A stretch of DNA of 64,000 bases from Vibrio coralliirubri (GTDB lineage Bacteria > Pseudomonadota > Gammaproteobacteria > Enterobacterales > Vibrionaceae): the NCBI RefSeq assembly GCF_024347375.1, contig NZ_AP025471.1, positions 1,364,001-1,428,000 of the forward strand, read 5' to 3'. Below, piece by piece: positions 5,274-24,075 of the stretch (position 1 is its first letter; each line of letters starts with the position of its first letter). A program made the translations under genes and the position numbers. Under the pieces are notes generated by a model. That model saw only the letters and a list, made by a program, of their open reading frames with translations. It had not been told where the DNA came from and did not search any database.

Positions 5274-5337
5274 TTGCTATATAGAGGTGTGCTACAGCAC
5301 CTCTATTCTTTGATTTCGAAATGGCTGCATAAGCAGT

Positions 5338-7485: not shown

Positions 7486-7641
7486 ATGAACCCACGGGAC
7501 AATTCCCCCAAAATTTTATTAGCGTCGAAGATGGTATTTAGTGCATTAGTAGCACTACTGTATTTACTCATAAAAGTCACCAAAGAAAGCATAATGAAAC
7601 TTCGAAGCGAACTAATGATTAAGCTATTGTTTATTAAATAA
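7486..7641 (+). CDS. Possible very small membrane protein (51 aa)
   Basis: ATG at 7486 opens a 51-codon frame ending TAA at 7639-7641. It has one hydrophobic stretch (MVFSALVALLYLLIKV) flanked by charged residues, so a small membrane protein is plausible. It overlaps by ATGA the end of an 11-codon frame (MAKRRSNVNAP, start 7454) that has a good ribosome-binding site, GGAG. Either the two are translationally coupled, or one longer small protein has suffered a one-base frameshift. Not recognised; could be spurious. Confidence 0.4.
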   Translation: MNPRDNSPKILLASKMVFSALVALLYLLIKVTKESIMKLRSELMIKLLFIK

Positions 7642-8855: not shown

Positions 8856-8923
8856 CTAAATATGAAGTTTTGTGAAAAAAGAGCGAACATACTCGTTCGC
8901 TCTATAACATCTAGCTCGTGGGA

Positions 8924-9475: not shown

Positions 9476-9514
9476 TTTCTCTTTCCTATTATCTAACTTA
9501 TTAACTTTACTGAC

Positions 9515-9757
9515 TTATTTTACTTCTGGCTCTAGCAGCACTTTGGTTACGAACAGACGAACCGCTGGTGCTACAAGGGCTAAAATTAACAGTGCAGATG
9601 GCACCATTTTTGAAACTGCGTTTAACCATGCATCAAAGAATACGCCTTGCTCTGGCAGTGTTTTCGCTACCATGATGGCTGGCATGCTAAGAAGCATAGT
9701 AGGTAAAACCATAGAAACCATTAGTGGGTATTGGAACTTACGTGAAAACTTTTTCAT
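9515..9757 (-). CDS. DUF2798 family small membrane protein
   Basis: An 80-residue inner-membrane protein with two predicted helices (about 10-30 and 50-70), beginning MKKFSRKFQYPLMVSMVLP, the pattern of DUF2798. The start at 9757 is preferred to an upstream in-frame ATG because of AGAGAG about ten bases before it and because the family begins there. Function is unknown. It is first in an operon with the AhpD-like gene and divergent from the LysR gene at 9906. Confidence 0.85.
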   Translation of the reverse strand: MKKFSRKFQYPLMVSMVLPTMLLSMPAIMVAKTLPEQGVFFDAWLNAVSKMVPSALLILALVAPAVRLFVTKVLLEPEVK

Positions 9758-9825
9758 GATTGACTCTCTTATGCCTGACTTCGATTGGCTAACTGATGGG
9801 GTTATATTAGCCCCGCCCATCACAA

Positions 9826-9840
9826 TCAAAAATAGACAAC
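9826..9840 (-). promoter_or_regulatory. Shared 15-bp motif, probable LysR operator, site A
   Basis: TCAAAAATAGACAAC here is identical to 11478-11492. It lies 69 bases upstream of the DUF2798 start and 65 bases before the LysR ATG, where an autoregulated LysR binds. TTGA and ATG-containing flanks are also partly conserved between the two sites. The adjacent LysR is the likely ligand, by inference. Confidence 0.6.
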
Positions 9841-9905
9841 ATTGAACTTGAATCTTTCATATTTGAATGATTAACTCAGAGTGTAATCCTCAAGAGCGAT
9901 CAATT

Positions 9906-10829
9906 ATGAAAGCAAAAGACATCTCCAATCTTTATCTGTTTTGCCAATCTGTCGAGTGCGGTGGCTTTGCAGCAGCGAGCCTTAAAACACACGTTTCAGC
10001 CCCGACGTTATCAAGGGCGGTAGCAAGTCTTGAGGATAAACTGGGTGAAAAACTGGTACATCGTAATGCAAAACAGTTCCAGCTCACGACAGCTGGCGAC
10101 GAATATTACCAGCGCTTCGCTGCCCTATTCATGCAGCTGAATGATGAATGGACGCAGCTCTCGAATAGTCAGCCCGTATTAACGGGTGAAATCCGAGTAT
10201 CTTGCCCTGAGCCATTTGCTGATAATTTTCTGCAAAAGATGGCAATTGAGTTTATGCAGCTTCACCCAGAGGTCACCGTCACCATTCAATTTAGCGCAGG
10301 CACAGAGCGTTTCTTTGATGAGCAGATTGACCTTGCGATTGTGACGACCCCACCTCATGCCAATCATTTAATACAGCGTCAGTTGTTTGAATCATCATTA
10401 ATGCTAGCGGCATCACCCAGCTATATCGAAAAACATGGTCAGCCAGAACGAGCAGAAGAGTTAATTAACCATCAGCTACTCTCAGGTAATAACTTGCCAT
10501 ATTGGGAGCTAAAAGAAGATGGCAAGGCGATCCGCATTCCCTATCAGCCTCGTTACTCAATCAGCAGCCTGCGTTTAAATATTGATGCGACAATAGCAGG
10601 AGCAGGGATCTGCATGATGCCAAGAGCAGCCTTTGAAAAGCATGCAGAAAGAAAAGAGTTAATAGAGGTATTGCCAGACGTTGAATACCCAACCGGTAAA
10701 GCATTTTTGGTGTGGGCAGACAGAAAGCTGATAGCGACCAGAGTGGTTGCCTTTAGAGATATGATTTTTGAACGGTTTGGGCAATCGGCGGAGTTTCTGG
10801 CTTCAATTCACTCAGAGCGAAACTCGTAG
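9906..10829 (+). CDS. LysR-family transcriptional regulator
   Basis: A 307-residue regulator with an N-terminal winged helix-turn-helix (about residues 3-62: FAAASLKTHVSAPTLSRAVASLE) and a periplasmic-binding-protein-like effector domain from about 90. The start at MKAKDISNLY is chosen because the helix-turn-helix of the family begins there; an ATG 13 codons upstream would add an unusual extension. It is divergent from the DUF2798/AhpD operon, and a bidirectional terminator separates it from the convergent DoxX-like gene. The identical motif in front of both target genes suggests it controls both. Confidence 0.93.
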   Translation: MKAKDISNLYLFCQSVECGGFAAASLKTHVSAPTLSRAVASLEDKLGEKLVHRNAKQFQLTTAGDEYYQRFAALFMQLNDEWTQLSNSQPVLTGEIRVSCPEPFADNFLQKMAIEFMQLHPEVTVTIQFSAGTERFFDEQIDLAIVTTPPHANHLIQRQLFESSLMLAASPSYIEKHGQPERAEELINHQLLSGNNLPYWELKEDGKAIRIPYQPRYSISSLRLNIDATIAGAGICMMPRAAFEKHAERKELIEVLPDVEYPTGKAFLVWADRKLIATRVVAFRDMIFERFGQSAEFLASIHSERNS

Positions 10830-10849
10830 TTATTGTATTTATGAAATGA

Positions 10850-10884
10850 AAAACGCCAGACTAGACGAACTAATCTGGCGTTTA
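10850..10884. terminator. Bidirectional terminator
   Basis: AAACGCCAGA pairs with TCTGGCGTTT around a 13-base loop, with A and T runs on both sides. It lies between the convergent LysR and DoxX-like genes and can serve both. Confidence 0.9.
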
Positions 10885-10901
10885 CTTTGTAACTTTAACG
10901 A

Positions 10902-11417
10902 TTACTTTTTACGAATATATAGGAATGCATTTAACCAAGCTAACCCAAGAATGATCAGTGTCATTACCGGTGGTTTAGACTGAAGCGGTAGCACTTCGGC
11001 CGGCACACTTGGCAATAGGTGAACATACACCGCGACGATCATAATTGCGGTCGTTAATAGCGTTGATAATTGCATCGCTTTATCTTTAATCGGTGCTGCG
11101 AGCGCCTTATCACCAATCATCACCACCAGTAGCAGTAAACCTGCAAAAATCTCACCTAATTGACCCGCCCAACGAGACAAAGTTGGGAAAGGCAGTTCAC
11201 TCAGTGCGATTTGTTTTGCGAACATAGTCGTAAACGGGTCAAAGAATTTTACTGTTCCCGCCATCACCATAAAGGCACCAAGAAGACCCGTTAAGATCTT
11301 TTGAACTTTCGTCCCTACGCCATCGGTTTTGTCATAGCTACGGACCAAAAAAACACCCGTAACGAGTAGCATTGTGCCGATAAGAGATAGCTCAAGAATT
11401 AGTTGTGATGTGCTCAT
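10902..11417 (-). CDS. DoxX-like integral membrane protein
   Basis: A 171-residue inner-membrane protein with four or five hydrophobic helices (about 5-25, 40-60, 85-102, 118-138 and 150-168). The topology and the GxxxxxxGxxKFFDP pattern resemble DoxX/DUF417-like proteins, which are linked to thiol and quinone oxidoreduction. The substrate is unknown. Its promoter carries the same 15-bp motif as the DUF2798/AhpD promoter, so the nearby LysR regulator probably co-regulates it. Family placement is approximate. Confidence 0.75.
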   Translation of the reverse strand: MSTSQLILELSLIGTMLLVTGVFLVRSYDKTDGVGTKVQKILTGLLGAFMVMAGTVKFFDPFTTMFAKQIALSELPFPTLSRWAGQLGEIFAGLLLLVVMIGDKALAAPIKDKAMQLSTLLTTAIMIVAVYVHLLPSVPAEVLPLQSKPPVMTLIILGLAWLNAFLYIRKK

Positions 11418-11477
11418 AGGAAACCTTCATTATGTGTTAGCAAGTTGATGGCGCTATTCTACGAAATACTCTAAAGC

Positions 11478-11492
11478 TCAAAAATAGACAAC
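11478..11492 (-). promoter_or_regulatory. Shared 15-bp motif, probable LysR operator, site B
   Basis: Identical to 9826-9840. It lies 61 bases upstream of the DoxX-like start and in the same orientation relative to the controlled gene as site A. This is the only other copy seen in the window. Confidence 0.6.
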
Positions 11493-11951
11493 TTCGATTG
11501 ATATCCATGCAAAAATGAAAGCTTGATCTATATATGGATTTACTTCCTAGAGCGTTTTGGGGCAAAAGTGTGCTAGGAGTCATTGGTAGAGGGTACTCCA
11601 GATGCCCAACACGAGTATATTGAAGGATCTTTAATCCATTTATAAACAACAATTTAAGTGTCATTTCACTGCGAGGTTTTATTGACTTTTCTTTACCGAA
11701 TTTTGATGAGTAAATACAGCCGCACTACTAGGCATTGTATGTCATCTACGAAGCCACTAAAGTTTGGGTCATTTATAAGCTCTGAATCGAAAATTCACGC
11801 AACCAAGATTTGGTGACCAAACCTTGGTTGCGTCCTATTTCAGATAAATAAGTGCATGATTCAAACTATTTGTTATGCACCTGTTTGGGTAAAAAGATGA
11901 TAGTACTCACACCCATGAATGATAATTAACAATACTATCCATTATTGGAAG
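11493..11951. other. Left boundary region of accessory block 2
   Basis: About 460 bases without a credible gene. Base composition and gene content change somewhere here, between the chromosomal DoxX-like gene and the element cargo. The only clear structure is the hairpin at 11797-11833. The exact left end of the integrative element could not be located. Confidence 0.5.
11797..11833. terminator. Perfect 11-bp hairpin left of the cargo operon
   Basis: ACGCAACCAAG pairs perfectly with CTTGGTTGCGT, and the loop contains a further small palindrome, TTGGTGACCAA. It lies about 170 bases past the end of the leftward cargo operon and may terminate it, although the U-rich tail on that strand is poor. 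It could also be a structured recombination site near the element end. Confidence 0.55.
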
Positions 11952-12000
11952 TGCAAACCCTCTTATTGATTGTCCAAAATCAATCATCCACTACACTGTG
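11952..12000 (+). repeat. 49-bp direct repeat, left copy
   Basis: TGCAAACCCTCTTATTGATT followed by TGTCCAAAATCAATCATCCA and CTACACTGTG up to 12000. It matches 16010-16058 at 45 of 49 positions in the same orientation. The two copies bracket the HAD operon, the 451-aa gene and a short ORF, so a module of about 4 kb is framed by them. Confidence 0.8.
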
Positions 12001-12003
12001 CCA

Positions 12004-12468
12004 TCAGCCTTGATTTTTCGGTATTTGTGAGCCAGCAGTGTTGTAAGATCGCAGTACATCCAGAGTCTCTAGCAATTGGCTGTCGGTATCAGGGTATGGG
12101 CTTGCGAATTGCTTAATACTGACCCATCGGCTTCGCTGGTTTTTTTCGATATATTCTTCCACATCGTCGACGATAACTGTTTTTGCTACATTCGAATTAC
12201 ATATAAATGCTAGATTTTTCTTGCGGCTTGACCACTCAACATACTCCATTGAGGCAAACCAATCGGGCGCAACTCCCTCTGAAACAAGGAGCCGTGCTAT
12301 CTGACGAAATCGCGATTCACTAACTGTCGTGTACATTACCACTCGTTCAGTAATGTCCTTGCAACCTTCGAGGAACAAGTGCAAATGAGGTCGTGCAATT
12401 TGACTTATTGCGTTGCTGATTAATGTACCCTCAAGATCTAGCGCAATAATTTTAATTGCATTATTCAT
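12004..12468 (-). CDS. HAD-superfamily phosphatase-like protein
   Basis: A 154-residue cytosolic protein with the HAD motifs in order: DLEGT (11-15) with the nucleophile D11, YTT (46-48) as motif II, K84 in RKKN, and VDD (100-102) as the metal-binding motif IV. The usual second acid of DxDGT is E13, as in some NLI/FCP-type and related phosphatases. The small size means there is no large cap, which suggests a phosphoprotein, nucleotide or polynucleotide end as substrate. It is last in the cargo operon, overlapping the 79-aa gene by eight bases, so the two are coupled. The biological substrate is unknown. Confidence 0.8.
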   Translation of the reverse strand: MNNAIKIIALDLEGTLISNAISQIARPHLHLFLEGCKDITERVVMYTTVSESRFRQIARLLVSEGVAPDWFASMEYVEWSSRKKNLAFICNSNVAKTVIVDDVEEYIEKNQRSRWVSIKQFASPYPDTDSQLLETLDVLRSYNTAGSQIPKNQG

Positions 12469-12700
12469 TTATCACTATTTCACCTCTGCGTACTAGTAGG
12501 CAGAATCTAGTGTAGTCGTGGCTGTATACGTAGATCGGGTGGGGAACAGTTGAGCCTGCCATATAGTCATCAAATGCAGCTAGCGTATGAGCTGGCAGTG
12601 AGCTTGGGTCTACTACTCTAAATGCAGAATTCGTCAACTCGAAACTTTCTAGTAAAGGGATTAACATATTCAATTCATCTCTCATCAAATTACTCCTCAT
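12461..12700 (-). CDS. Small hypothetical cargo protein (79 aa)
   Basis: Unrecognised. An acidic 79-residue protein with no membrane segment; VVDPSSLPAHTLAAFDDYMAG and YVYSHDYTRFCLLVRRGEIVINE suggest a small alpha/beta domain. GAGGAG lies a few bases before the ATG. It overlaps the HAD gene by eight bases and follows the 282-aa gene by nine bases, so the three are almost certainly co-transcribed and may form a complex. Confidence 0.7.
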   Translation of the reverse strand: MRSNLMRDELNMLIPLLESFELTNSAFRVVDPSSLPAHTLAAFDDYMAGSTVPHPIYVYSHDYTRFCLLVRRGEIVINE

Positions 12701-12709
12701 GATTAATAA

Positions 12710-13558
12710 TTAAACAAATTCTTTCCGATGTATTAGCGATGTAATTATTCTTTCGAGATTTTTGATACTCAGGCTAACATCACAGATTCGAGTAGGAAAA
12801 TTCTGTTTTGGAACATGATTCTTCTTACTATCATGGATCGGGATTAGCATTTTAATCTCAGTATCTGCCCCTGCTAATTCCGATACTGCGTGAGTATCAC
12901 AAGGTGATCTCAGATCTAGTCTCAGTGCATTAATCAAGGCAGTGGAATTAATGGCGCTCCTAGTTAAAAATTCAGGCAGTTTTAAATAAGCCTCTCCCTT
13001 GTTAACTATCTGAAATTTAAAGTTATTTGGAACTAAATTTCCTTCGATGTAACCTTCTAGATTGAGAGTTAATTGATTTCTCCTCTGACTACAGACGGTC
13101 AACAACGGTTGGCTGATTTTCAGTATCGATGTTTGACAGTTAAACTCGTACGAGATATCTGGATAATGATTTTGGAAACTCTCTGAACTGTTGTTTCTGA
13201 GATGTCTGTAAAGAGCATGACTCGCGATTTGTTGATTTTTTGAGGGTTCGACAAGATATACACATTCATTATCGAAATAATCAATGTCACTGGTTGATTG
13301 GATATTTAGATCTATCACATTTCGTAGTAACCCCATTTCCTCGATGTTTTTTTCATTTTTATAGAGTTCATTCAGTTTTATGAACAGATCAAGCCTTTCT
13401 TCATAGCTGATCGAAAAGTAAAACTTTTGTAGTGCTATTTGCCAATCTTTTTGTTGAGGATAGTCGTCATCGAGCCGTACTGAAGCATATTGTCGAGTCA
13501 GTTTTGCGTCCTCTTGTAAATCAGTTAAATACATAAGTCTCACTATTTGTCCTATCAA
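12710..13558 (-). CDS. Hypothetical cargo protein (282 aa)
   Basis: Unrecognised. The N-terminal 100 residues are mainly helical and charged. The middle (about 145-215) is strand-rich, with CNSQT-like and LTLNLEGYIEGNLVP segments. The C-terminus holds DLRSPCDTHAV, and the tail ends KNLERIITSLIHRKEF. There is no signal peptide or transmembrane helix. It is the second gene of the leftward cargo operon, 17 bases after a 49-aa membrane protein. It may be the main component of an unknown HAD-phosphatase system. Codon and base use is AT-rich compared with the chromosomal genes around. Confidence 0.7.
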   Translation of the reverse strand: MIGQIVRLMYLTDLQEDAKLTRQYASVRLDDDYPQQKDWQIALQKFYFSISYEERLDLFIKLNELYKNEKNIEEMGLLRNVIDLNIQSTSDIDYFDNECVYLVEPSKNQQIASHALYRHLRNNSSESFQNHYPDISYEFNCQTSILKISQPLLTVCSQRRNQLTLNLEGYIEGNLVPNNFKFQIVNKGEAYLKLPEFLTRSAINSTALINALRLDLRSPCDTHAVSELAGADTEIKMLIPIHDSKKNHVPKQNFPTRICDVSLSIKNLERIITSLIHRKEFV

Positions 13559-13575
13559 TCGTTAAATAACTTAAC

Positions 13576-13725
13576 CTAGAATACGTCATCAGATCTGATC
13601 CCTCGCCACCCCAACAGCATTGCGTTTAACGCCCAACCGATGGACCTAACTCCCGAGCAGAAAAACAACGTACAACCTACGAACACCCAAAATCCGCTCG
13701 TAATAAACTGCAAAATTTCTAGCAT
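13576..13725 (-). CDS. 49-aa single-span membrane protein
   Basis: This short frame starts at ATG 13725-13723 with AGAGGA six bases before it and ends with TAG at 13578-13576. It encodes MLEILQFITSGFWVFVGCTL and a further 29 residues: one hydrophobic helix (about 5-28), then a basic, tryptophan-containing tail. Very similar architecture (MLE-x-hydrophobic-FWxFxG) recurs, from memory, in tiny proteins of integrative elements, whose function is not established. It is the first gene behind the promoter at 13756-13785 and 17 bases before the 282-aa gene, so it belongs to the cargo operon. Confidence 0.65.
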   Translation of the reverse strand: MLEILQFITSGFWVFVGCTLFFCSGVRSIGWALNAMLLGWRGIRSDDVF

Positions 13726-13755
13726 GGAATCCTCTTTGATATGCGAATTTTCGAT

Positions 13756-13785
13756 AATTTACATTTCTAGTGATGCTTTTGTCAA
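13756..13785 (-). promoter_or_regulatory. Sigma-70 promoter of the leftward cargo operon
   Basis: On the leftward strand TTGACA (13785-13780) is a perfect -35 box. TAAATT (13761-13756) follows after 18 bases as a weaker -10 box. The start codon of the 49-aa gene is 30 bases further on. Confidence 0.55.
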
Positions 13786-14140
13786 TAGTATTTTTGGTAG
13801 AATTTCTATTTAAATCAATCAGTTATGATCAAGTGTTTTATTGCAGGGGTGTGTTTTTATGAATTTTGGTTACGTGTATGCCTCATACAACTAATAGTTT
13901 TTTTGAGGGGATTACGTTCTAACCTGACAGTTTGCCCTACCCACAACCAAGGCGACTTTGGGCAAAGGTGATTTAGAAGTGTGCCACCACGTCTTGGGAC
14001 ATAACAAACTAGAGTTAAAGCACTACACCACTGAACTCTGTTCAGATAAGTGTAGGAATGGAAAAGGTTCTAGACTTGCACAACAAAGTGCAACTGCTAG
14101 AATACGATAATTGTAATCATCTGATTTATAAAGGTTTGAA
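13786..14140. other. Divergent intergenic region inside the cargo
   Basis: Lies between the leftward operon and the rightward 451-aa gene. It contains a hairpin at 14023-14055 (CTACAC/GTGTAG outer stem, CTGAAC-TCT-GTTCAG inner stem). Near 13982-14005 is a degenerate copy of the end of the 47-bp repeat (CCACCACGTCTTGGGACATAA), preceded by TTTGCCC/GGGCAAA, which can pair. A recombination scar between two cargo modules is possible. No gene is seen. Confidence 0.5.
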
Positions 14141-15496
14141 ATGCTCGATTTTGATGACTTTGTCGGTGAGTTTGACCATGTTATTGATATATGGTCAGGG
14201 GGGCAACTTACCTTGCAAGAAGCCATTGAAAATGCAGATGATGAGTTATTATTCGAGTTTATCGAAACTCTTTTTTTGATAACTAAATATTATTTTTCTA
14301 CAGGTTCTTCTCAGGAAAGTCCTTTCTCATTTACAGCAAATTCGGCTTTAAGTGGATTAGATACCCCATGTGCTTCCATTGACTGTCGGTTATTAAAAAT
14401 TGATCAAATGCTTAGCTTTACCTCCCTCTATGCAGATGAGGTGTTCTTAAGAAACCCTTTTGAGTCTCTTTACAAGATATGCCAATCATCCGGTGTGATA
14501 CCAAAAGTTCGAGTGGAGCTTCTAGCTAACCTAAAGATATATCGAGCTTTATGCCCTTATTTCAAGGTTGGGATTATTAAATATGCCAACAGCACTCATT
14601 CATTTTGCCATGACTACATTAATAACGTTCTAGAGCCATACAAAGACAAATTATATAGAAATGAAAGCCGATTGTACGATGCATTGGAAAAGCATTTTCT
14701 GAGTAGAGTGACTGCTAGTTATGATGAATATGGTGTTGATAAAGGCCATTTAATCCTAAAAGGGCCTAGTAACCTTATTGAACACCGTGAGATGTATCTT
14801 CATATATATGAGAACAAAGGCAAGTATATCGATGATATGCGTATGCGAGGATTACCGTACAAGATAAGCACAGATGGCATACGTAATGAAGGTATCTTGA
14901 AGTTACTACTGGAACCGCTGCTTGATGATATAACTTTTCACAATTGGCACTCTAAGTTTTATGGCACAAACCTCCTCACTAACGATGACTTACAGTTCAA
15001 TATCTTGAACAAAATCAATGTCAACGCTATCAACACAGAAGTATTAACCAATCCATTTAAATATAATCTTACGGTGGCAGAAAACACTACACCTGAAACT
15101 GTTATTGAGTTGAGACAAGCTAATGAAGAGTATTTTGACATCTACCGAGAGCGTACAAAACAATTTCTTGGAACAATTAAAGGACTGAATGCCAAAGAGC
15201 AAGAAGAAGCCTTTGCTGACCTTGTAAGATCTGAAATAGCTCATATTGATCGAAACTTACGCGCTCATAAAGAGAAATACTTATCCAAGGGTCGCCAAAA
15301 CATTGTCTTTGGCGCTGGCATAATCACAGTTGGATCGTACTTGGGAATAATACCAACGGATATGGCGTCTTTGATTGCAACTGTAGGCGGTACAGCTGCT
15401 CTTTCTTCTTCTGCTACGGATTTCAACCAACTACTACAACCCGACAGTGTGGCTAAAAATAATGATTTTTATTTCTTATGGAAATTGCAGAAGTAG
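14141..15496 (+). CDS. Hypothetical cargo protein (451 aa) with C-terminal hydrophobic region
   Basis: Unrecognised. The first 330 residues look soluble and helical. A charged helical stretch follows (about 335-400: EEYFDIYRERTKQFLG, AKEQEEAFADLV, EIAHIDRNLRAHKEKY). Then comes a glycine/alanine-rich hydrophobic segment (about 405-432: VFGAGIITVGSYLGI, LIATVGGTAAL) that could enter a membrane or form a helical hairpin. AAAGG lies about eight bases before the ATG. A soluble sensor joined to a membrane-active tail is an architecture known from abortive-infection effectors, but that is only analogy. It is divergent from the HAD operon and lies within the same repeat-bounded module. Confidence 0.7.
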   Translation: MLDFDDFVGEFDHVIDIWSGGQLTLQEAIENADDELLFEFIETLFLITKYYFSTGSSQESPFSFTANSALSGLDTPCASIDCRLLKIDQMLSFTSLYADEVFLRNPFESLYKICQSSGVIPKVRVELLANLKIYRALCPYFKVGIIKYANSTHSFCHDYINNVLEPYKDKLYRNESRLYDALEKHFLSRVTASYDEYGVDKGHLILKGPSNLIEHREMYLHIYENKGKYIDDMRMRGLPYKISTDGIRNEGILKLLLEPLLDDITFHNWHSKFYGTNLLTNDDLQFNILNKINVNAINTEVLTNPFKYNLTVAENTTPETVIELRQANEEYFDIYRERTKQFLGTIKGLNAKEQEEAFADLVRSEIAHIDRNLRAHKEKYLSKGRQNIVFGAGIITVGSYLGIIPTDMASLIATVGGTAALSSSATDFNQLLQPDSVAKNNDFYFLWKLQK

Positions 15497-15659
15497 TACT
15501 AGCTAATGTATGTCAAATGGGGGCGAGATCTGCCACTTTGTAAATACTTGGATTCCATATACGCAATGGGGCAATTTCAATTTAGCTTATTACCCCATAA
15601 ATCTAATGAAGGACAATAACGACATAGAGTTGCTGTCAGTACGAGTGTGAATCAATAAT

Positions 15660-15845
15660 CTAATTTCTTTTTGCTTCTTTGAGTTCTTTTTCTGCTTTAC
15701 GCATATCATCTATCGCATCTTTCAAATCCTCAGAACTCACAGCTCCAGCTCGGCGAAGCTCTGTCATTTCTTTATGATGACTACAAGCATCATCATATCT
15801 TTTTCTGGCCTCCTTTATTTCAGGAGTTCTTCTTATATCAAACAT
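15660..15845 (-). CDS. Possible small coiled-coil protein (61 aa)
   Basis: A short, highly charged helical sequence beginning MFDIRRTPEIKEARKRYDD and ending KAEKELKEAKRN, with heptad-like spacing. Neither the ATG at 15845 nor an upstream in-frame TTG at 15866 has a clear ribosome-binding site. It may be a real small protein of the cargo or the remnant of one. No family is recognised. Confidence 0.4.
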   Translation of the reverse strand: MFDIRRTPEIKEARKRYDDACSHHKEMTELRRAGAVSSEDLKDAIDDMRKAEKELKEAKRN

Positions 15846-15912
15846 ACATGAGCAAAAATAAGTCAAATGATGATTTTGTGAACTGATAAGTAAAAGCTAG
15901 ATAACTTCGAAA

Positions 15913-15959
15913 GGGGCATTTTCGTGTTTCATACCCCGCCATCACATCTCTGGACATAA
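15913..15959 (+). repeat. 47-bp dispersed repeat, copy 2
   Basis: Same 47 bases as 7311-7357 with two differences (CACATC for CAGGTC). It lies 50 bases left of the right-hand 49-bp repeat, so two unrelated repeated sequences meet at this point of the element. Confidence 0.75.
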
Positions 15960-16009
15960 ATGAGCTACAGGTTTCGCTAAATCAGCATTTAACGAACAAC
16001 CTGAGGTAT

Positions 16010-16058
16010 TGCAAATCCTCTTATTGATTGGCCAAAATCACTCATCCACTACACTTTG
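16010..16058 (+). repeat. 49-bp direct repeat, right copy
   Basis: Matches 11952-12000 at 45 of 49 positions in direct orientation. The four differences are single substitutions, so the copies are old or descend from different elements. Nothing beyond either edge is conserved. Confidence 0.8.
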
Positions 16059-16301
16059 ACTCCTGCACAAAAATTGGGGTTAGCAGATAGATCGCATTCT
16101 ATCCAAGACATTTTGAGCTTTAGTGCATTTAAGGAGTTTAAAGCAAACACCTTGATTTAAGTTGGTTGCTTGAATGCTGTATAATACAGTTTATTAATGA
16201 GTATTGAGAGCCAGTGGATTTGAACGATCTCATATATTTATATGACATTATCAATCATAAGCATTAGTCATATTCAATAGTTTCGAGGCAGATTTTAGTA
16301 G
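16059..16301 (+). promoter_or_regulatory. Promoter region of the 218-aa cargo gene with a palindromic -10
   Basis: CTGTATAATACAG at 16177-16189 is a 13-base palindrome containing a perfect TATAAT. It is too short to be a canonical LexA box, since the half-sites CTG and CAG are 7 rather than 10 bases apart. A repressor binding over the -10 would fit. No strong -35 is visible. The coding start is about 110 bases downstream, leaving a long leader. Confidence 0.4.
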
Positions 16302-16958
16302 ATGGATATTTTTATGGCATTTTTTGATATCTCTGAACCAATAGCTAGCAAAGTAAACGCTGTAGCTAATTGGGTTACCATAATTGGTGCAGCTCTGGTG
16401 CTTGTCGGAACCATTATGGTTGTCTGGTCAGGCGGAATTAAAGAACAATATTCAAATGAAAAGATTCAACAAAATAAAACGATAGCAGAGGTAGCTGGCG
16501 CAGATGCTGCAAAAGCTAATGCAGAAGCCGAAAAAGCCAAAGAACACGCTGCATTTCTATCTCGAAAAGCAGAAGAAGCTAAACTGGAGCAAGAGCGCTT
16601 AAAAGCTCAATTAGCATGGCGTAGACTATCAGAAGAACAGTCTAAAATTTTACACACCCATCTATCTAACAACCTAAAAGCGAATGTATGGGTATCATTT
16701 GTAAAAAATGATCCTGAATCTACGTTATATCGAGAGGAGATAAATTCCGTCTTAGTCTCTTCTGGTGTCAAAACAAAGTATTTTTCGGGGTATGAGATGG
16801 CCGTTGGTCTCAACATTATTGGGCCACCAAGCGAAGATAAAGCTCTACTTATCAAGGCTTTTAAAGATGCAGGGTTACAATTCGAAGTAAAACAAACGAA
16901 TGGTTTCTCTGACGGTCAGTTACAAGTTCTTGTAGGTAGTAAGCCTCCCGTATTTTGA
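16302..16958 (+). CDS. Membrane-anchored coiled-coil protein (218 aa)
   Basis: Unrecognised. Order of parts: short N-terminus, one transmembrane helix (about 24-43, VTIIGAALVLVGTIMVVW), an alanine/glutamate/lysine coiled coil (about 55-115), and a C-terminal alpha/beta domain (about 120-218) with WVSFVKNDPEST, YEMAVGLNIIGPPSEDKALL and DGQLQVLVGSKPP. A membrane anchor, a rigid rod and a small soluble domain suggest a sensor or effector held at the membrane. An internal ATG four codons in (16314) is an alternative start. It stands alone between the cargo module and the recombinase operon. Confidence 0.7.
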   Translation: MDIFMAFFDISEPIASKVNAVANWVTIIGAALVLVGTIMVVWSGGIKEQYSNEKIQQNKTIAEVAGADAAKANAEAEKAKEHAAFLSRKAEEAKLEQERLKAQLAWRRLSEEQSKILHTHLSNNLKANVWVSFVKNDPESTLYREEINSVLVSSGVKTKYFSGYEMAVGLNIIGPPSEDKALLIKAFKDAGLQFEVKQTNGFSDGQLQVLVGSKPPVF

Positions 16959-16983
16959 TAGGTATAGTTAAAGATTGTATTTT

Positions 16984-17079
16984 ATGAAAAATACCATTGT
17001 TGCTCTGACTTTGTTGTGGGTGCTAGGTTTACGGTTAATACATCTGCCAAAATTTAGAGCAACCATCACAATTCATTGA
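16984..17079 (+). pseudogene. Short signal-peptide-like ORF, possibly a remnant
   Basis: ATG at 16984 opens 31 codons (MKNTIVALTLLWVLGLRLIH and 11 more) and then stops. The beginning looks like a secretion signal, and nothing mature follows. It may be the start of an exported-protein gene truncated by recombination, or chance. Evidence is weak. Confidence 0.25.
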
Positions 17080-17157
17080 TAGTAAAGGTGATTTCAACAT
17101 AACCCTACAATTAAAATGGAAACTAAAGAATGTAAGCTGTTGATTTTATTTATTAAA

Positions 17158-17190
17158 CAAAGGGGGGCTAAGTGACTTCTAGATCCCCCA
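17158..17190 (-). terminator. Terminator of the recombinase operon
   Basis: GGGGG (within 17162-17167) pairs with CCCCC (17185-17189). On the leftward strand the stem is followed by a T-rich run. It lies about 20-50 bases beyond the stop codon of the last recombinase-operon gene. Confidence 0.5.
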
Positions 17191-17207
17191 TAACTTATCA
17201 GCCTACC

Positions 17208-17639
17208 CTAATTAGGCTTGTTAAATGGCAAGACATTATTTGAGTGCTCGTATGCATCAACGATAAACTTAGGATCATCACAGCACTGAAACAAATTATA
17301 CGTTAGCTCAGTTTGAGCAACCAATAATGCTGCCTTTTCAAACTTTAACTCGGCATTTGACTTAGTAAGTCTCACATTCTTAGTTGCCGTGGTTAATGCC
17401 GACTTGGTTGGCGACTTTACCTCTTTACGCTTAGGGGCAACACGCGCTTTTGCCTCCTTAATTCTCTTAATTAAGTCTGGGTAGTGGTATGCAGACCCAT
17501 CCCCCATCCCTGCTTCAATTTCTACATTTTTGATGTTCAATCTTGCATTTGGAGGGAGAACTACCACATTGCCACTCAATAACCTCTCTAATGCAGACTC
17601 CAGTAGCTCCAAACCAGATTTCTTAACTTGCATAATCAA
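17208..17639 (-). CDS. Small basic protein, last gene of the recombinase operon (CDS4/TnpC-like)
   Basis: A 143-residue protein with a lysine/arginine-rich middle (about 65-100: IKRIKEAKARVAPKRKEVKS) and a helical, partly coiled-coil C-terminal half. Its start overlaps the upstream 641-aa recombinase gene by four bases, so it is translationally coupled. By position and size it corresponds to TnpC of Tn554 and to the fourth conserved gene of the vibrio SE elements as I remember them, where it is thought to influence recombination. No enzyme motif is present. Confidence 0.75.
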   Translation of the reverse strand: MIMQVKKSGLELLESALERLLSGNVVVLPPNARLNIKNVEIEAGMGDGSAYHYPDLIKRIKEAKARVAPKRKEVKSPTKSALTTATKNVRLTKSNAELKFEKAALLVAQTELTYNLFQCCDDPKFIVDAYEHSNNVLPFNKPN

Positions 17640-19561
17640 CCCTTATACTCTTCAAATTCAACTCCAAAGGTTCGCATGACATGTTCCGCAGCTTTAATCT
17701 GACTCATGAAGTGAGAGTAAGAAACGGGCGAAATTGACCCACAATCACTTGCGAACTCAAGATGCGAAGTACAACGCTCGTGTAGTTTTATCCATTTATC
17801 CTTCAGCTCTTCTGGTATCAGTGTATGGTCACACTCCGATGCACAGAACGCCGCATTTACACTACCATCTTGGTCGCAACGGTAGCCATTAGTGCAATAT
17901 GTAAGTCCTGAGTAATTTAACTGGATATCCCCACGTTCTATCAAGGCTTTAATGGATGAACGTGTACTGTAGATCTCTGGAACTTTGCCACTTTCTTTAA
18001 GCTTTGATATTTTCGCTGAGAAGCCCCCCATAAGCACCTTATCAGTGTTATAAGCATCAAAAAGTACATCTGCTGACATGTCGTTCTGAATCTCATTTAC
18101 CAAGGTGTTAAGCTTAGTATCAACACGTAGCTCTTCATTCCTCGTTATCCGAGCGTAATTAGCATACCACTCGGTCATTTGCAGTGAGATATGCTTAAAC
18201 TGCCGCTTTATAGCGGGTAGTGTTGCCAAATCGAAACGTAAAGCTAGTACAGCAAATGAGCGTCTCCATTGATGTGGAGTTAGATTCCACTCCATTCCAA
18301 CATACGCATCATTTTGTCGATCTCTATTAAGAGTACAGAACTCTTTGTAGTCAGCTTCGCTAAGGCAAACGCCTTTAACCAAATTTTCCACATGCCTTTC
18401 TTTTATACTGTATGCGGTTTTAACACTCAGTTTACGAATACTCGAAAAAGTAACATACAGAGAGCGAGTGTTCAGGTTCATTATTGCCTTAATCTTACCG
18501 ATAAACTTAATAATCCCATCACACATCTCAGAGCACACCCATTCATCGACAATATCTTCTGAATCTGACAACTTAGAGGTCTCCGCTGTCAAGGTGTGAT
18601 AAACATCTTCACCTTCCGTGTAAGTTTGGAACGAACCATCATGAAGCCTAGCTAATTCATGGATTCTCATGCCAGTAAATGCCAGCAGCAATTGGTATGA
18701 TGCGTTCAAAACCCTGTTGAGCCAACCACAGACGTTAATGGGATTATAGTCACCGTCAATGTAAGGTGACAAAGCGCTATTAAGTAGACAGCTTTCCGTA
18801 ATGACCTGTCCACGAGGCTTCATGTAGTAGTTTACACCAACCGTGACATTAGCTTCTCCTTTCACTCGTATTGCTTCTTCTCGACGCGATTTAGCCTTAT
18901 CAAAGTGAGATCCATACTGCTGTGCTAGCATCTCAATCTCATCTAATGAATCTTTACCAGCCTTGTAAAGCTCCAACGCATTACCCAGAATAGTTGTAGC
19001 GATACCTAACGGGATGGCGAGCGTCTGTTTCTTTTCAAGACGTCCTGATGAGCAATATTTCTCGGTTAGAGCTGTCATGTTGAATTTTGGCAACTCACAA
19101 AGCCCCTCTCTGTGAGCAGAAAACGCCATCACATTAAAGGTTGAAAGCAATTCAGAGAGAGATGAATATGCATACTTACCATTAACGTGCTCTAAGTATT
19201 TCATTAATGCCGAGCGAGTGAACATATCTTTTGGTTCTATATCAGGTGGCATACAACCAATAATCGTCCTGACCCTTATAACAGCATTAAGGAAAGACAC
19301 CTCCTTAACCATTCGTTTCTCTGCATCATCTGATCTGTACGTCCTTATAATTAAATGCCTGATCAGAAATGGTATGTTCGCCACTAAAGTCCTCGTAACC
19401 CTTACTTCGTCTAGAACCTTCTGATGACTTATCCATTTATCATCTTTTAATCTGCTCAAGCCATCCCCATGCAAATCAAAGGTGGTGAACAACTCAAGAT
19501 CTAAGCTAGATTGAAAATCAGCTCTTACGCTGGCAACATCAAATGCTCGATTACTGGTCAT
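17636..19561 (-). CDS. Large tyrosine recombinase (IntB/TnpB-like, 641 aa)
   Basis: A site-specific recombinase with a complete tyrosine-recombinase signature: R299 in TGMRIHEL, a probable lysine near 330, H430-x2-R433 in TPHQWRRSF, H457 in FKHISLQ and the nucleophile Y466 in EWYANY. About 170 residues follow the tyrosine. They include a cysteine cluster (CTNGYRCDQDG, FCASECDH) that may bind zinc and is unusual for ordinary phage integrases, but it is seen in the large recombinases of this class. The gene is two bases after the preceding recombinase and overlaps the small basic protein gene by four bases. Confidence 0.9.
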   Translation of the reverse strand: MTSNRAFDVASVRADFQSSLDLELFTTFDLHGDGLSRLKDDKWISHQKVLDEVRVTRTLVANIPFLIRHLIIRTYRSDDAEKRMVKEVSFLNAVIRVRTIIGCMPPDIEPKDMFTRSALMKYLEHVNGKYAYSSLSELLSTFNVMAFSAHREGLCELPKFNMTALTEKYCSSGRLEKKQTLAIPLGIATTILGNALELYKAGKDSLDEIEMLAQQYGSHFDKAKSRREEAIRVKGEANVTVGVNYYMKPRGQVITESCLLNSALSPYIDGDYNPINVCGWLNRVLNASYQLLLAFTGMRIHELARLHDGSFQTYTEGEDVYHTLTAETSKLSDSEDIVDEWVCSEMCDGIIKFIGKIKAIMNLNTRSLYVTFSSIRKLSVKTAYSIKERHVENLVKGVCLSEADYKEFCTLNRDRQNDAYVGMEWNLTPHQWRRSFAVLALRFDLATLPAIKRQFKHISLQMTEWYANYARITRNEELRVDTKLNTLVNEIQNDMSADVLFDAYNTDKVLMGGFSAKISKLKESGKVPEIYSTRSSIKALIERGDIQLNYSGLTYCTNGYRCDQDGSVNAAFCASECDHTLIPEELKDKWIKLHERCTSHLEFASDCGSISPVSYSHFMSQIKAAEHVMRTFGVEFEEYKG

Positions 19562-19563
19562 GA

Positions 19564-21555
19564 TTAATCCTCGTCCCAGTATGGGTGCAATCCATCATCA
19601 ATTAATTTCTCTCTGGCTAACGTAAGAGTTTCCTCGGAAAATTTTCCTATGATAATATCTATCTTTTCAATCACTTCACTAAAGTTGTTTGCGAAATGCT
19701 CCCTATCAATGCTAAATATCTTCCCCTCAAGCAATTTTTCCTTGAATGACAAGAAGTTCCAAATATCATCGATAGAATCCACAATTGCAGCACTAGGGCA
19801 GTCAAAACAAGCTAATAAATCAGAACAAGCCAACACTCCAAAATTGCTTCTTTCAGCCTTCTTACTGAATGCACTAACTGTTGTAGGCTTTGTGCAGACA
19901 GTTCCCATTGGAGTGTTTGATTGAACGTCTAGAATTGGTATCAATGAAGCCTTATACAGTCTATCTTTGACCTCTGATGCTGTTACATCGTCTTCGATCG
20001 ATAAGGCAACGGATTGAATCGCAGCAGCAACACCACCTAATGAAACTTTATGCTCCACAGGAGAGCCTTCAGAATAGTTTTTCATTACAACAGCAGGACT
20101 ACTCCCTGAACGTTTGATCGCTGCAACAGTCCCACCTTTGCTGTGCTCAAGTGATATCTCAGTTTCGCGTATTCTCTGTGTTGTTAGTGTTTTTAAGCCT
20201 TCGATTTCCCCAGTTATAAAGTCAACTATACATGGGTTCTTAGCGTAAAAAGCGGATTGATTGTCCTTGGTGACTCTAAAGAGAAGATTGTCTGTAGGGA
20301 TATCAAATAATTCATGAACCTCTAGTAGATTCTGAATAACTCGGTATCCCGTTTTTTTTATTTTCAACTCTTCTGGGCTTGAGCTGTTCAGACTAGGCAA
20401 ATCCATAGATAAATTCTTGTATATACCACGATTCTTTTGGGCTTTGAGATGAACCCACTCACCATGCTCATTATCGAACTCTACGTCACTGGTGCGAATA
20501 TTGGTTAAAGTTGTGTCAGTCCATGCTGAGTAACGCGCTATAAGGTAATACGCAGTCGTATTTAATAGATTTATAGCAGCTCTTCTTGAAGAGAACCTGA
20601 GGTTTGAGTTACCCCCTACGTATTCATATGCCGACGTACTTGGTGATTTAATATATTGATAAGCTCTTCCGTGCAGTCTAAATAGAAGTCTCACTAACTT
20701 CTTATACCTTACGTCATCATACCCATTCACAGGGACACTAGAGACGCTTGGGAGCTTATTTACTGCTACTGACACGGCGTGTGGCAGACTAACCTCAGCA
20801 GCTTCGAAAGTTTTCAACAACCTTCTAGCTTTAGGCTTTGACTTAGAACTACCCTTAGCCTTCGCATCCACAGCTTTGTGAAGATTAGAAATGTAGTTAG
20901 CTAAATTGCCAGCATCGAAAAAATGACTGCTACATGTCTTTGCATAGTTCCTTATTGTACTAATGTACGCCAATAAGGTGTCACCAGATAACTCATCATA
21001 TAAAGCTTTGATAGCCGTGAATAAAAGTCCAGCATCTTTCAGATGAGAGACATCATTACTCATATCAATTGTCTTGAAGCCAGCAGAACGAGTATTAATT
21101 CCTATGTAATGAGTTCCATCAGCAGCCCACATTACGCCTTCCTTGACGGATTGCGGCTTCTTATTGTTAAACATTGACTCAATTGGCGTTTGCGAAGCGT
21201 CATATTTAATACCCAAACGTTCAAACATCGACTTAACCGTACCAGTCACCTTATGATGCTTATCATGTAATATATACGCACTGACGGCTTCACCAGTCAT
21301 TGGGTTTTGGTAATCGTTGTTTTCGCACCAAACAAAGTATTTCTTCAGATTAAAGAAAGCAGTTTTCTTGCCAGCATTATGTCTAGCATCTACATGAGAG
21401 AATATTTCGGTCATGTATTGAGATCTGTGACTACACACAGCAGATTGGTCGAACTCATTGGGTACACCGAAGCAGACCAGCCTTCTAGTGTCAATTTCCG
21501 TTATTGGTCGCCCCTTATAGGGCGTGAAAGTAATTTTAAATTGGTTCTGGATCAT
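19564..21555 (-). CDS. Degenerate tyrosine-recombinase-like protein (663 aa)
   Basis: Middle gene of the trio. The fold is recognisable from ARYSAWTDTTLTNIRTSDVEF (split over 341-361), TQRIRETE (459-466) and a possible nucleophile Y494 in MKNYSEG. However, the first catalytic arginine is missing where TGxR is expected (residues 344-350 read AWTDTTL), and the HxxR histidine is T459. It is therefore probably inactive as a strand-cutting enzyme and acts as a structural partner, though an unusual active site is possible. The C-terminus has FGVLACSDLLACFDCPSAA. It starts two bases after the first recombinase gene. By position it is CDS2 of the SE plan. Confidence 0.8.
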   Translation of the reverse strand: MIQNQFKITFTPYKGRPITEIDTRRLVCFGVPNEFDQSAVCSHRSQYMTEIFSHVDARHNAGKKTAFFNLKKYFVWCENNDYQNPMTGEAVSAYILHDKHHKVTGTVKSMFERLGIKYDASQTPIESMFNNKKPQSVKEGVMWAADGTHYIGINTRSAGFKTIDMSNDVSHLKDAGLLFTAIKALYDELSGDTLLAYISTIRNYAKTCSSHFFDAGNLANYISNLHKAVDAKAKGSSKSKPKARRLLKTFEAAEVSLPHAVSVAVNKLPSVSSVPVNGYDDVRYKKLVRLLFRLHGRAYQYIKSPSTSAYEYVGGNSNLRFSSRRAAINLLNTTAYYLIARYSAWTDTTLTNIRTSDVEFDNEHGEWVHLKAQKNRGIYKNLSMDLPSLNSSSPEELKIKKTGYRVIQNLLEVHELFDIPTDNLLFRVTKDNQSAFYAKNPCIVDFITGEIEGLKTLTTQRIRETEISLEHSKGGTVAAIKRSGSSPAVVMKNYSEGSPVEHKVSLGGVAAAIQSVALSIEDDVTASEVKDRLYKASLIPILDVQSNTPMGTVCTKPTTVSAFSKKAERSNFGVLACSDLLACFDCPSAAIVDSIDDIWNFLSFKEKLLEGKIFSIDREHFANNFSEVIEKIDIIIGKFSEETLTLAREKLIDDGLHPYWDED

Positions 21556-21557
21556 GT

Positions 21558-22841
21558 TTAGTCTTTCAAAATCTCTTGTGTGTACAACTCTAATTCCATT
21601 GCAGACTCTCTTTTCACTTCTTGACTTTCAATGATGCTCATATACCTAAAAGTATCCTTGTCCAACTTATGACCAAGTGTGCTTTTCACCTCATTGAATA
21701 CCTCTGAAAACTTCATGCCTCTATCAAGTAATCGAGTCCCGTATTCAGTAGCAAAAGTCGCCCTTAAGTCGTGGTACTTGTGATTAAAGTCAACACCATG
21801 CTCTTGAAGAAGCTGTTGCCTAAGCTCGCTCATCCTCTTTGTAAGTTCATCTGAACGGAAAGGTGTTCCTCGGTTATTCAAAAACAACCTTGGATTATCC
21901 ACTGCAAACTTTTTACCTAAGGCAAGTCGCTTATCTGAGGTTGCGTAGTCGCATAGGCGCTCATAAAGAGCGAACGGTATTTCAACTATACGTCTAACGC
22001 CGTTTTTAGTCTTAGTACCTTCGTTGCCACCCACTGAAACCACGACAGTCTCCCGAGCGCTAAGATTTGCATTAGCGAAATCACCAGTGAAAAATGAGTA
22101 AGGAAGCGTCAGCGCTTCATTCTCACGCAACCCCATCAACAGTGAAACCTGAGATGCTAACACCATATGAGGCTTTCCAAGAATTGCCAGCCCAAGCTTG
22201 AATTGCTCGCGACCAAGCGCATTTATTGGCTTCAGCTCTCTGCCGCCATTTTTCTTGAAGGAGTCAGAGATACCACGTAACTTTTGTGGCAACTTCATAT
22301 CACTCGTCGCAGCATAAAACCTTTTCTTACCTGAAGCAGTGTGCTTTTCAACTCTTCGAGTGTCTGTGACGAATGGTTGGTTGATATCGCTTATATCCAA
22401 CACTCTTTCGTGGAAAGCCCATAAGTAAAACCTCTTCACAGCCCCTAGCCATTGGTTTCCTGTATCAAAGGAATAATCGCCATTTTTCACCTTATCCATA
22501 ACATGCCTCTTGAATGCATATGTCGGACGCTGAAGTTTTGAACGAGGAAATACGTTCCAACAACAACCGTTATCCTTCAAGAATTGAAAGTATGCTTTCA
22601 GTCCCTTGGTTGTTGTCAGATTGTTCTCATGCATGAACGCTGGATCGGCAATCAAATCAATAAGAAATAGATTTACTGGAGTTATGGCGAGTCCCGTCTC
22701 TGAATCGTAAAGTATGTTGGATTTGATGGTTCGACAGCTAGTATCAAAATTAACAGAAGAAGTTATGTTGTTTGATTCATCTCGGCTTAGAACTGGAGTA
22801 CCATCGACTCGTAGTTCAACCTCTAAATATTTTATACTCAC
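21558..22841 (-). CDS. Tyrosine recombinase (IntA-like, 427 aa)
   Basis: The first gene of the recombinase operon has all catalytic residues: R239 in MGLRENEAL, K276/K278 as candidates, H357-x2-R360 in HDLRATFA, H391 in LGHKL and Y400 in FRYMS. An N-terminal core-binding domain occupies about residues 50-165. Such enzymes excise and integrate the element by site-specific strand exchange. Its upstream region carries two 27-bp-spaced copies of GTTAGGAGGGTTA, plausible arm-type binding sites or element-end repeats. The operon runs leftward through three more genes with gaps or overlaps of 2-4 bases. Confidence 0.92.
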   Translation of the reverse strand: MSIKYLEVELRVDGTPVLSRDESNNITSSVNFDTSCRTIKSNILYDSETGLAITPVNLFLIDLIADPAFMHENNLTTTKGLKAYFQFLKDNGCCWNVFPRSKLQRPTYAFKRHVMDKVKNGDYSFDTGNQWLGAVKRFYLWAFHERVLDISDINQPFVTDTRRVEKHTASGKKRFYAATSDMKLPQKLRGISDSFKKNGGRELKPINALGREQFKLGLAILGKPHMVLASQVSLLMGLRENEALTLPYSFFTGDFANANLSARETVVVSVGGNEGTKTKNGVRRIVEIPFALYERLCDYATSDKRLALGKKFAVDNPRLFLNNRGTPFRSDELTKRMSELRQQLLQEHGVDFNHKYHDLRATFATEYGTRLLDRGMKFSEVFNEVKSTLGHKLDKDTFRYMSIIESQEVKRESAMELELYTQEILKD

Positions 22842-22901: not shown

Positions 22902-22946
22902 AAGAGGTTAGGAGGGTTAGAGGAATATAAGAAGTTAGGAGGGTTA
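22902..22946. repeat. 27-bp-spaced direct repeats upstream of the first recombinase
   Basis: GTTAGGAGGGTTA occurs at 22907-22919 and again at 22934-22946, with AAGA(G/A) before each. They are 60-105 bases before the IntA-like start codon, at the chromosomal side of the element. They are good candidates for recombinase binding sites at the right attachment end. Confidence 0.6.
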
Positions 22947-22947
22947 C

Positions 22948-22979
22948 AAATCCGATATCACCTTTGATATCGGATTTTT
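22948..22979. terminator. Hairpin at the right edge of the element
   Basis: AAATCCGATATCA pairs perfectly with TGATATCGGATTT around CCTT, with TTT on both strands. It lies 45 bases past the stop codon of the leftward LysR gene and could terminate that gene. The integrative element appears to have inserted next to it. Confidence 0.8.
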
Positions 22980-23024: not shown

Positions 23025-23921
23025 TCAAACATCGCCAGACTTGATATCGCTAGACCAAGCTTCTGCGGCAAAATCAATGAACTGACGAACAACTGGAAGC
23101 TGATAACTACGAGACAAATACACCGCCCAAAGCACACTACTCGGTGAAACAAAATCATCCAAAATTCGTTTCAATCTGCCATCTGTAATCAAAGGATTAG
23201 CTAAATCACAGGGCAAGCGAACAACCCCTTTTCCATGCTGTGCAGCGCGGGTTAATACCCCAACATCATTGGCTTTAATAGTGCCAGACACCTCAACAGA
23301 ATAGTGCTGATTATCCTTAACGAAATCCCACTTAGAGACACTCAAATGGCGAAAACAATTGTGCTGTCGAAGCTCGTCGACTGTTTTCGGTTGACCATGT
23401 TTGTCTAAATAAGCTTGCGATGCACACACCACCGAATCAATTTCCATTAGCTTACGAGCAATCAAGCTATCGTCAGGTTGATCGGTATAACGCAGCGCAA
23501 TATCGATTCTGTCATCCACCAGCTGAGCAAAACGGTCAGAAGCAAAAAGTTCTACCGTGATATTGGGATGAAGCTCTGTGAACTGTTCAACCACATCCAA
23601 CAACATGTGCTGAGTTAAACCAATGGGTGCAGCAATTCGAATGGTTCCGGAGAGAGCATCGGTTTGATTAAGCGCGGTCACTTCTAACTCCGCCGTTTCA
23701 TGGAGTATTTTCTCGCAGCGCTGTAAGGCGATTTCCCCTGCCGCCGTCAAACTCACCTTACGAGTGGTTCTGTGCAACAACCGCTGTTTTAACCACCCTT
23801 CGATCTCTTGAACATGACGCGAAACCTGCAACCGGCTCATGTCCAAATGCTCTGCTGCTTGAGTGAAGCTGGCACAATTTGCGACTTCAACAAAGCTACG
23901 CATCGCCGTCAATCTATCCAT
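23025..23921 (-). CDS. LysR-family regulator divergent from an NAD(P)-binding protein
   Basis: A 298-residue LysR protein with helix-turn-helix FTQAAEHLDMSRLQVSRHV (about residues 17-35) and an effector domain from about 90. The start at MDRLTAMRSF is chosen because the family begins there; an upstream in-frame ATG would add 18 residues without similarity. It is divergent from the NAD(P)-binding gene at 24076 and so probably regulates that gene. The effector is unknown. It is the first chromosomal gene right of the integrative element. Confidence 0.93.
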   Translation of the reverse strand: MDRLTAMRSFVEVANCASFTQAAEHLDMSRLQVSRHVQEIEGWLKQRLLHRTTRKVSLTAAGEIALQRCEKILHETAELEVTALNQTDALSGTIRIAAPIGLTQHMLLDVVEQFTELHPNITVELFASDRFAQLVDDRIDIALRYTDQPDDSLIARKLMEIDSVVCASQAYLDKHGQPKTVDELRQHNCFRHLSVSKWDFVKDNQHYSVEVSGTIKANDVGVLTRAAQHGKGVVRLPCDLANPLITDGRLKRILDDFVSPSSVLWAVYLSRSYQLPVVRQFIDFAAEAWSSDIKSGDV

Positions 23922-24075
23922 CACACTTTTCCTTATCCACTGAACCAAGCCTATTAGATAACTATATAGATACAATCTACATCATTTTACGATATTTATC
24001 GCAGCTTAGTGAGCTATTAGACTGCAATGGCTGTCGAGAAACAGACTCAATAAATTAGATAATTGGAGAGACATT

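Follow-up and report, generated by a model that had tools for sequence, protein, structure and literature searches.

A probable, divergent strand-biased circularizing element in Vibrio coralliirubri, and the residue pattern of its altered recombinase-fold protein

The recombination operon and the borders of its element

The stretch of DNA analysed here (the window; 64,000 nucleotides of Vibrio coralliirubri contig NZ_AP025471.1, positions 1,364,001 to 1,428,000) contains, on its minus strand at window positions 17208-22841, an operon of four genes, which we describe together with the mobile element, very probably a strand-biased circularizing element (SE), to which it would belong. The four open reading frames (ORFs) encode 427, 663, 641 and 143 amino acids, are separated along the operon by 2 bp, 2 bp and then a 4-bp overlap, and are named below, in the SE manner and in that order, intA, tfp, intB and srap. 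IntA (21558-22841, minus strand, GTG start) is a tyrosine recombinase with the catalytic set R239-K279-H357xxR360-H391-Y400, and IntB (17636-19561, minus strand) is a large tyrosine recombinase with R299-K330-H430xxR433-H457-Y466 and a C-terminal cysteine cluster. These two active-looking proteins flank Tfp (19564-21555, minus strand), a recombinase-fold protein with threonine (T346) in place of the box I arginine, glutamine (Q460) in place of the HxxR histidine and serine (S485) in place of the third histidine, in which K374, R463 and Y494 are retained. Srap (17208-17639, minus strand) is an accessory protein with a TTG start and an ATG two codons further in. Matches of IntA to XerC/XerA (NCBIfam), and of IntB to PF00589 and NCBIfam integrase families, were weak and below cut-off, and neither the 663- nor the 143-residue protein has an integrase-type match in Pfam or NCBIfam.

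The original prediction, made from the sequence by a model, had described these four ORFs, and its coordinates and gaps agree with the ORF listing. Its residue assignments are likewise borne out: all six catalytic residues of the 427-residue protein are invariant in an alignment of 11/11 IntA-type proteins, and those of the 641-residue protein, together with C556, C562 and C577 of its cysteine cluster, in 8/8 IntB-type proteins, both sets being small and hand-picked, whilst the 663-residue protein does lack the box I arginine and the HxxR histidine and does possess a candidate tyrosine. Tfp also carries a C-terminal cysteine cluster, absent from that account, of which C577, C583 and C586 are present in 64/64 family members.

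The range first described spans the recombination operon only; the whole element occupies 2848-22946 (20,099 bp), with the 6-bp sequence CAAATC at each side. At the left end the attL spacer (22947-22952), which reads GATTTG in the direction of intA and is the same as in the empty site, adjoins terminal motif C (22929-22946, minus strand, TAACCCTCCTAACTTCTT), a second copy of which (22902-22919, minus strand, 17/18 identical) lies 27 bp further in. At the right end the attR spacer (2842-2847), identified by the empty-site comparison, adjoins motif C' (2848-2865, plus strand), inverted and 10/18 identical to C. The element has the imperfect inverted terminal repeats and 6-bp spacer of SEs, with intA at its left end. 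The insertion adjoins the foot of a palindrome (22948-22977), terminator-like by eye, that lies downstream of a host LysR gene (23025-23975) and is found in the empty sites of relatives too.

Read in the intA direction, the empty site is ATATCG-GATTTG-AACTCA, attL is ATATCG-GATTTG-TAACCCTCC and attR is GGATAGTTA-GATTTG-AACTCA. The host flanks have a full-length match in ten other genomes, nine of which were compared (the tenth match lies near a contig start), and in 9/9 the site is empty, i.e. window bases 2847 and 22947 are joined with a 6-bp overlap. Among named records of the LysR protein, 11 of 19 returned were compared; eight, including V. splendidus, V. tasmaniensis and V. lentus, have the same junction and three could not be aligned across it, this set sharing at least one contig with the nine genomes. 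We place the host in the V. splendidus clade because the best LysR match is to V. splendidus 12E03 (97%). Allowing at most one mismatch, 36 of 227 genomes of the genus contain the 20-bp empty site, which the window's own genome lacks. Motif search alone had failed to locate the right end (best plus-strand match at 39018 with 5 mismatches, another at 16939 with 7), and this end was accordingly fixed at 2847/2848 by the empty-site comparison. A tRNA gene as target was also considered, the empty site GTTCAAATC being T-loop-like; no tRNA is present at the empty site of locus L107, and this is a resemblance only. One relative (genome G403, C124:13066-13085) has GTTCGAATC in place of GTTCAAATC.

Membership and comparison with known systems

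In published accounts, an SE carries intA-CDS2(tfp)-intB-CDS4(srap) at its left; IntA and IntB possess the RHRY residues, which Tfp is said to lack (PMC9345347, PMC10214605). The element in the window resembles SE-6945 and SE-6283 of V. alfacsensis pSEA1 in its four left-end genes and their order (active, crippled, active, small), and in having imperfect inverted terminal repeats, a 6-bp spacer and variable cargo. IntA and IntB likewise have RHRY and Tfp lacks the full set, whilst retaining the second arginine and the tyrosine, and the tfp-srap block (21555 to 17208, 4,348 bp) falls inside the 1.2-6.5 kb range used in SE searches (Idola 2023). It differs in carrying motif C twice at its left end and in its target, the foot of the LysR terminator, whereas the SEs in print occupy yaaA, insJ, the yjjN terminator or bcp; compared with SE-6945, IntA is ~23% and IntB ~22% identical.

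The nearest named relative that we found is an SE-like operon on the Alteromonas mediterranea megaplasmid pAMCP48-600 (NZ_CP018025.1), which provides the best plasmid match for all four proteins at one locus and in the same order (identities of 49% for IntA, 35% for Tfp, 42% for IntB and 45% for Srap, the last at E 4e-21). Its element shares CCCTCCTAA of motif C at the left end and TTGGATAGTTA of motif C' at the right (L001:17246), and a further likeness is GATTYGAACT beyond the right end; its flanks, in contrast, are different, and its right end lies in tRNA-like sequence within a tRNA array. As a separate observation, that element (L001:17246-17325) ends at GATTCGAACTG inside a truncated tRNA-like sequence with a weak tRNA-Sec match below cut-off, and has a different left neighbour. 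In the search of all plasmids, IntB also matched the SE-6945 IntB on pSEA1 (E 2e-12), and Srap matched the protein in the same position of a four-gene operon on a V. alginolyticus plasmid (34%, E 1e-8); IntA, Tfp and IntB each matched their SE-6945 counterparts, in the same positions, in a 16-protein database for which E-values are lenient. Gene order, homology and termini together indicate, with high confidence, an SE, and one that is apparently a complete, divergent member of the group.

Several tyrosine recombinases per element are a feature not only of SEs, but also of GInts, RIT elements and the Tn554 group (PMC10214605 Table 1), and assignment to one of these instead has to be weighed. 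GInts (ginABCD, Pseudomonas) likewise encode three recombinase-type proteins and a small one, one of the three lacking the box I arginine, and all four gin genes are essential (PMC5385486); in the order ginA-ginB-ginC-ginD, however, the arginine-less protein is third, whereas in the window it is second. In a control for GinC, none of eight regions examined held a GInt-ordered operon. RIT elements have three recombinases of 315-410 residues and 34-bp terminal repeats, unlike the four genes here with their 663- and 641-residue products. Tn554 (TnpA, TnpB, TnpC) resembles the window in combining an ordinary recombinase, a large one and a small protein, and in its 6-bp footprint (PMC10214605), but tnpA-tnpB-tnpC has no third recombinase-like protein corresponding to Tfp. 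These three groups were set apart by their published descriptions; together with the match of IntB to SE-6945, the differences make it very improbable that the element belongs to any of them. Of the two likenesses suggested in the original prediction, that to Vibrio SEs is upheld by gene order, homology and termini, whilst Tn554 is a relative in mechanism only, without a middle-gene counterpart (PMC10214605).

Residue pattern and possible role of Tfp

The Tfp alignments grew from 25 to 54 and then 64 proteins, comprising 21 clusters at <40% identity; one of the 64 is a C-terminal piece without a letter in the first columns, hence n = 63 there. The box I position is N in 52, T in 8, G in 3 and arginine in 0/63, so that loss of this arginine, noticed in the single protein, is indeed a family trait. 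The lysine position is K in 61/63 (one R, one D), and R376, two residues after the lysine, is present in 63/63. The HxxR histidine position never holds histidine (S 30, Q 13, R 10, K 5, N 2, M 2, E 1, G 1), its arginine position has 61 R and 3 K, and the third histidine position has N in 40, H in 15 and S in 9. Y494 is present in 64/64, and was unvarying in the 25- and 54-protein sets also. Across the 21 clusters (mean pairwise identity 19%) the tyrosine is kept in 21/21, the HxxR arginine is R in 20 and K in one, and no box I arginine occurs; of the 339 core columns just 8, which include R463 and Y494, vary in at most one cluster. We found no other arginine or histidine in Tfp that would complete the active site, although the invariant R376 might conceivably do so.

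A further set consists of the top 120 of the 329 proteins found, each with a listed identity to the query of at least 65%; N at box I, the lysine, R376, R463, N at the third histidine and Y494 are present in 120/120. Three positions ahead of R463 these proteins have S in 118, N in one and C in one, where the alignment column had given Q in most, probably through gap placement. Because every Tfp in these counts was recovered through its similarity to Tfp, members that depart from the pattern may have escaped. Left out of the 64 were, from loci L007-L025, L014 (101 residues), L023, L024 and L025 (the same tfp as L065) and, from 30 order-wide loci, L075, L082 and L087 (each coinciding in position with another); listed matches that had no locus are not among the 64 either, apart from those in one group of fetched regions. 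When the tfp products of L023, L024 and L065 were checked separately, N, K, R, R463 and Y were present in 3/3, L014 being short of these columns.

Publications already describe an inactive third subunit of recombinase type, namely Tfp in SEs (Nonaka 2022, Idola 2023) and GinC in GInts. Idola et al. describe Tfp as lacking the RHRY residues and GinC as lacking the catalytic tyrosine, whilst according to Bardaji et al. the first arginine is the sole RHRHY residue missing from GinC (PMC5385486). Within the portions of the retrieved papers that were read, we found no statement that Tfp retains the second arginine and the tyrosine. The central idea of the original prediction is thus in print, in outline, and the residue pattern is the part for specialists: the family-wide retention of second arginine, lysine and tyrosine is what goes beyond the accounts read.

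The profile of 54 Tfps aligns weakly with Cre over box I, placing asparagine opposite an arginine which we take to be Arg-173 (E 0.013-0.05 for most Cre entries); the top row of the same table is an unrelated protein. Two mutants devoid of the box I arginine, Cre R173A and Flpe R191A, still bind and form synapses yet carry out no recombination (PMC4381057); at the phosphate, the functions of the box I and HxxR arginines are distinct (PMC4499138). Because these mutants bind and synapse without recombining, Tfp may hold half-sites in the synapse, and loss of the box I arginine (mostly to asparagine) with lysine, HxxR arginine and tyrosine kept fits best with a synapsis-competent subunit that does not cut. 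We slightly favour this specific role for Tfp, i.e. binding and synapsing without cutting, and assign a probability of roughly 0.75 to SE membership and a non-cutting Tfp taken jointly. In SE-6283, knock-outs of intA, intB and srap abolish circle formation, of which only srap was complemented, and a tfp mutant was unobtainable (PMC10214605).

In such a mechanism IntA and IntB would perform the cutting, assisted by Srap, whilst Tfp would bind half-sites and enter the synapse without cutting; one strand per site would be exchanged, and replication would finish a circular copy with no empty donor site left, as proposed for SEs. IntA and IntB may divide excision and integration between them, and Tfp may change place. 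The earlier suggestion that the middle subunit only shapes the complex stays an inference; the tyrosine, HxxR arginine and lysine retained in nearly all members suit a site-bound subunit that does not cut, although the tyrosine may have other uses.

Several points weigh against the joint reading. Srap has no significant match to the SE-6945 Srap (E 1.4), and both spacers carry the empty-site sequence (GATTTG), so that the SE footprint rule is silent here. That Y494 is the equivalent of the catalytic tyrosine is a prediction from sequence; the Tfp profile is partly in register with IntA and IntB at K, HxxR, H and Y with weak scores, a global alignment of Tfp with IntA did not succeed, one divergent Tfp found no PDB match at E up to 10, and a Pfam catalytic-domain match was present in 0/8 Tfps. 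With the usual recombinase geometry, the SE footprints imply that excision cuts on one side of the spacer and integration on the other, and Tfp would therefore not sit simply on one fixed half-site. In those published footprints, the 6 bp of the left flank enter the circle, and the 6 bp of the circle adjoin C' after integration. Loss of the HxxR histidine alone need not stop cutting, as mutants of Flp H305 illustrate, and cleavage persists in Flp R191K (PMC4381057, PMC4499138); among the changes whose tests we saw, none placed asparagine at box I. Profile comparisons were too weak to decide whether Tfp has a common origin with IntA or IntB, scores of 16.9 and 17.6 comparing with shuffle maxima of 16.2 and 16.4 (60 column shuffles each).

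Retention of tyrosine, HxxR arginine and lysine in nearly all Tfps may also leave other uses of the tyrosine possible. One, which we regard as unlikely though worth weighing, is that Tfp is a DNA-binding or regulatory former recombinase, perhaps acting outside the synapse, whose tyrosine serves DNA binding. The precedent is MrpR of prophage SPbeta, which has the recombinase fold, has lost most catalytic residues and keeps a conserved tyrosine, Y304, that is seemingly crucial for DNA binding (PMC10516654); Tfp profiles, moreover, match best over the N-terminal, core-binding part, and 8/120 listed relatives have a precomputed match to PF13495 (a phage integrase N-terminal SAM-like domain, according to the sources). 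MrpR, however, is a phage repressor outside any integrase operon, whereas tfp sits between intA and intB in 12/12 whole four-gene operons examined (the window, L001, L065, L066, L068, L070, L105, L106 and L126-L129); its counterpart ginC is essential for recombination in GInts (PMC5385486), and Tfp also retains the lysine and HxxR arginine of the scissile phosphate pocket.

Less probable still is donation of the Tfp tyrosine in trans to the pocket of IntA or IntB, so that one strand would be cut by a mixed active site. Tyrosine in all Tfps aligned, with the HxxR arginine and lysine so widely kept despite loss of the box I arginine and HxxR histidine, would be consistent with this, Flp provides a precedent within the recombinase fold (PMC4381057), and a built-in strand asymmetry would follow; IntA and IntB, however, have complete sets with tyrosines of their own, and MrpR exemplifies a tyrosine kept for binding. 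A related and similarly doubtful idea is that Tfp is a specialised half-enzyme, keeping Asn-Lys-xxxArg-(Asn/His)-Tyr, whose tyrosine would be used in trans or once a neighbour completes the site; if true, strand bias would arise from unequal active sites within one synapse. Returning to the non-cutting, synapsing Tfp that we prefer, the pattern qualifies the printed claim of missing RHRY and poses a question at the level of residues, namely why the tyrosine is invariant once the box I arginine is lost. SEs are carriers of resistance genes in bacteria of marine and clinical origin, and in the published cases tested their circles form, by a proposed one-strand mechanism, with no empty site left; the ends mapped here add one target and one divergent SE branch.

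Related operons and cargo

A search with Tfp of 5.8 billion proteins, which scored just the 7998 candidates with the most words in common and overlooked more distant Tfps, gave six others among the matches listed (35-42% identical), and a profile search (alignment A1) gave only the same seven proteins among the matches listed. Tfp matches occur in 17 of 100 genomes (own included; best beyond the window's copy, E 1.6e-28) and, at 1e-6, in 36 of 394 genomes of the order (own included); no relatives of the tfp subclade were confirmed among the genome contigs, and no right-end pattern was found in viral contigs. The host genome contains four SE-type core operons, the other three of which, at C1:858000-874000 (L126), C1:1005000-1022000 (L065) and C2:181000-198000 (L066), diverge from that of the window; L065 has an extra 306-residue ORF between tfp and intB, a size found three times there and perhaps an insertion sequence. 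Motif C repeats were sought upstream of intA in six other regions: L066 also has a 27-bp spacing, with 3/18 mismatches, ~185 bp upstream, weaker repeats occur in L065 (4 mismatches, spacing 35) and A. mediterranea L001 (5 mismatches, spacing 37), and no repeat was seen in the other three with up to 5 mismatches allowed.

Very divergent SE-like operons were seen at L127-L129 and L131-L133 (L133 in the same genus, the rest in other families of the order), and their Tfps retain the third histidine. The four genes are adjacent in L127-L129; in L131-L133 no Srap was present among ORFs of at least 110 residues, and L132 has two ORFs between tfp and intB. On pAQU1 (L069) a srap-like gene at 9926-10384 lies by a partial intB-like ORF, with a second intB-like place elsewhere; this was not used as support.

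Cargo occupies 2848-17207 and includes, besides unknown ORFs, IS3-type transposase ORFs (3507-4855), a peroxidase-related protein (8924-9475, weak match), a LysR regulator (9867-10829) and a NIF-like phosphatase (12004-12468); the ORFs at 14141-15496 (451 residues) and 12710-13558 (282 residues) had no family match. A DUF4365 protein is encoded at 5338-7152, and over its N-terminal part it resembles two PADLOC models, Aga_REase-PNTD1-PNTD2 (E 1e-16) and PDC-M02A.

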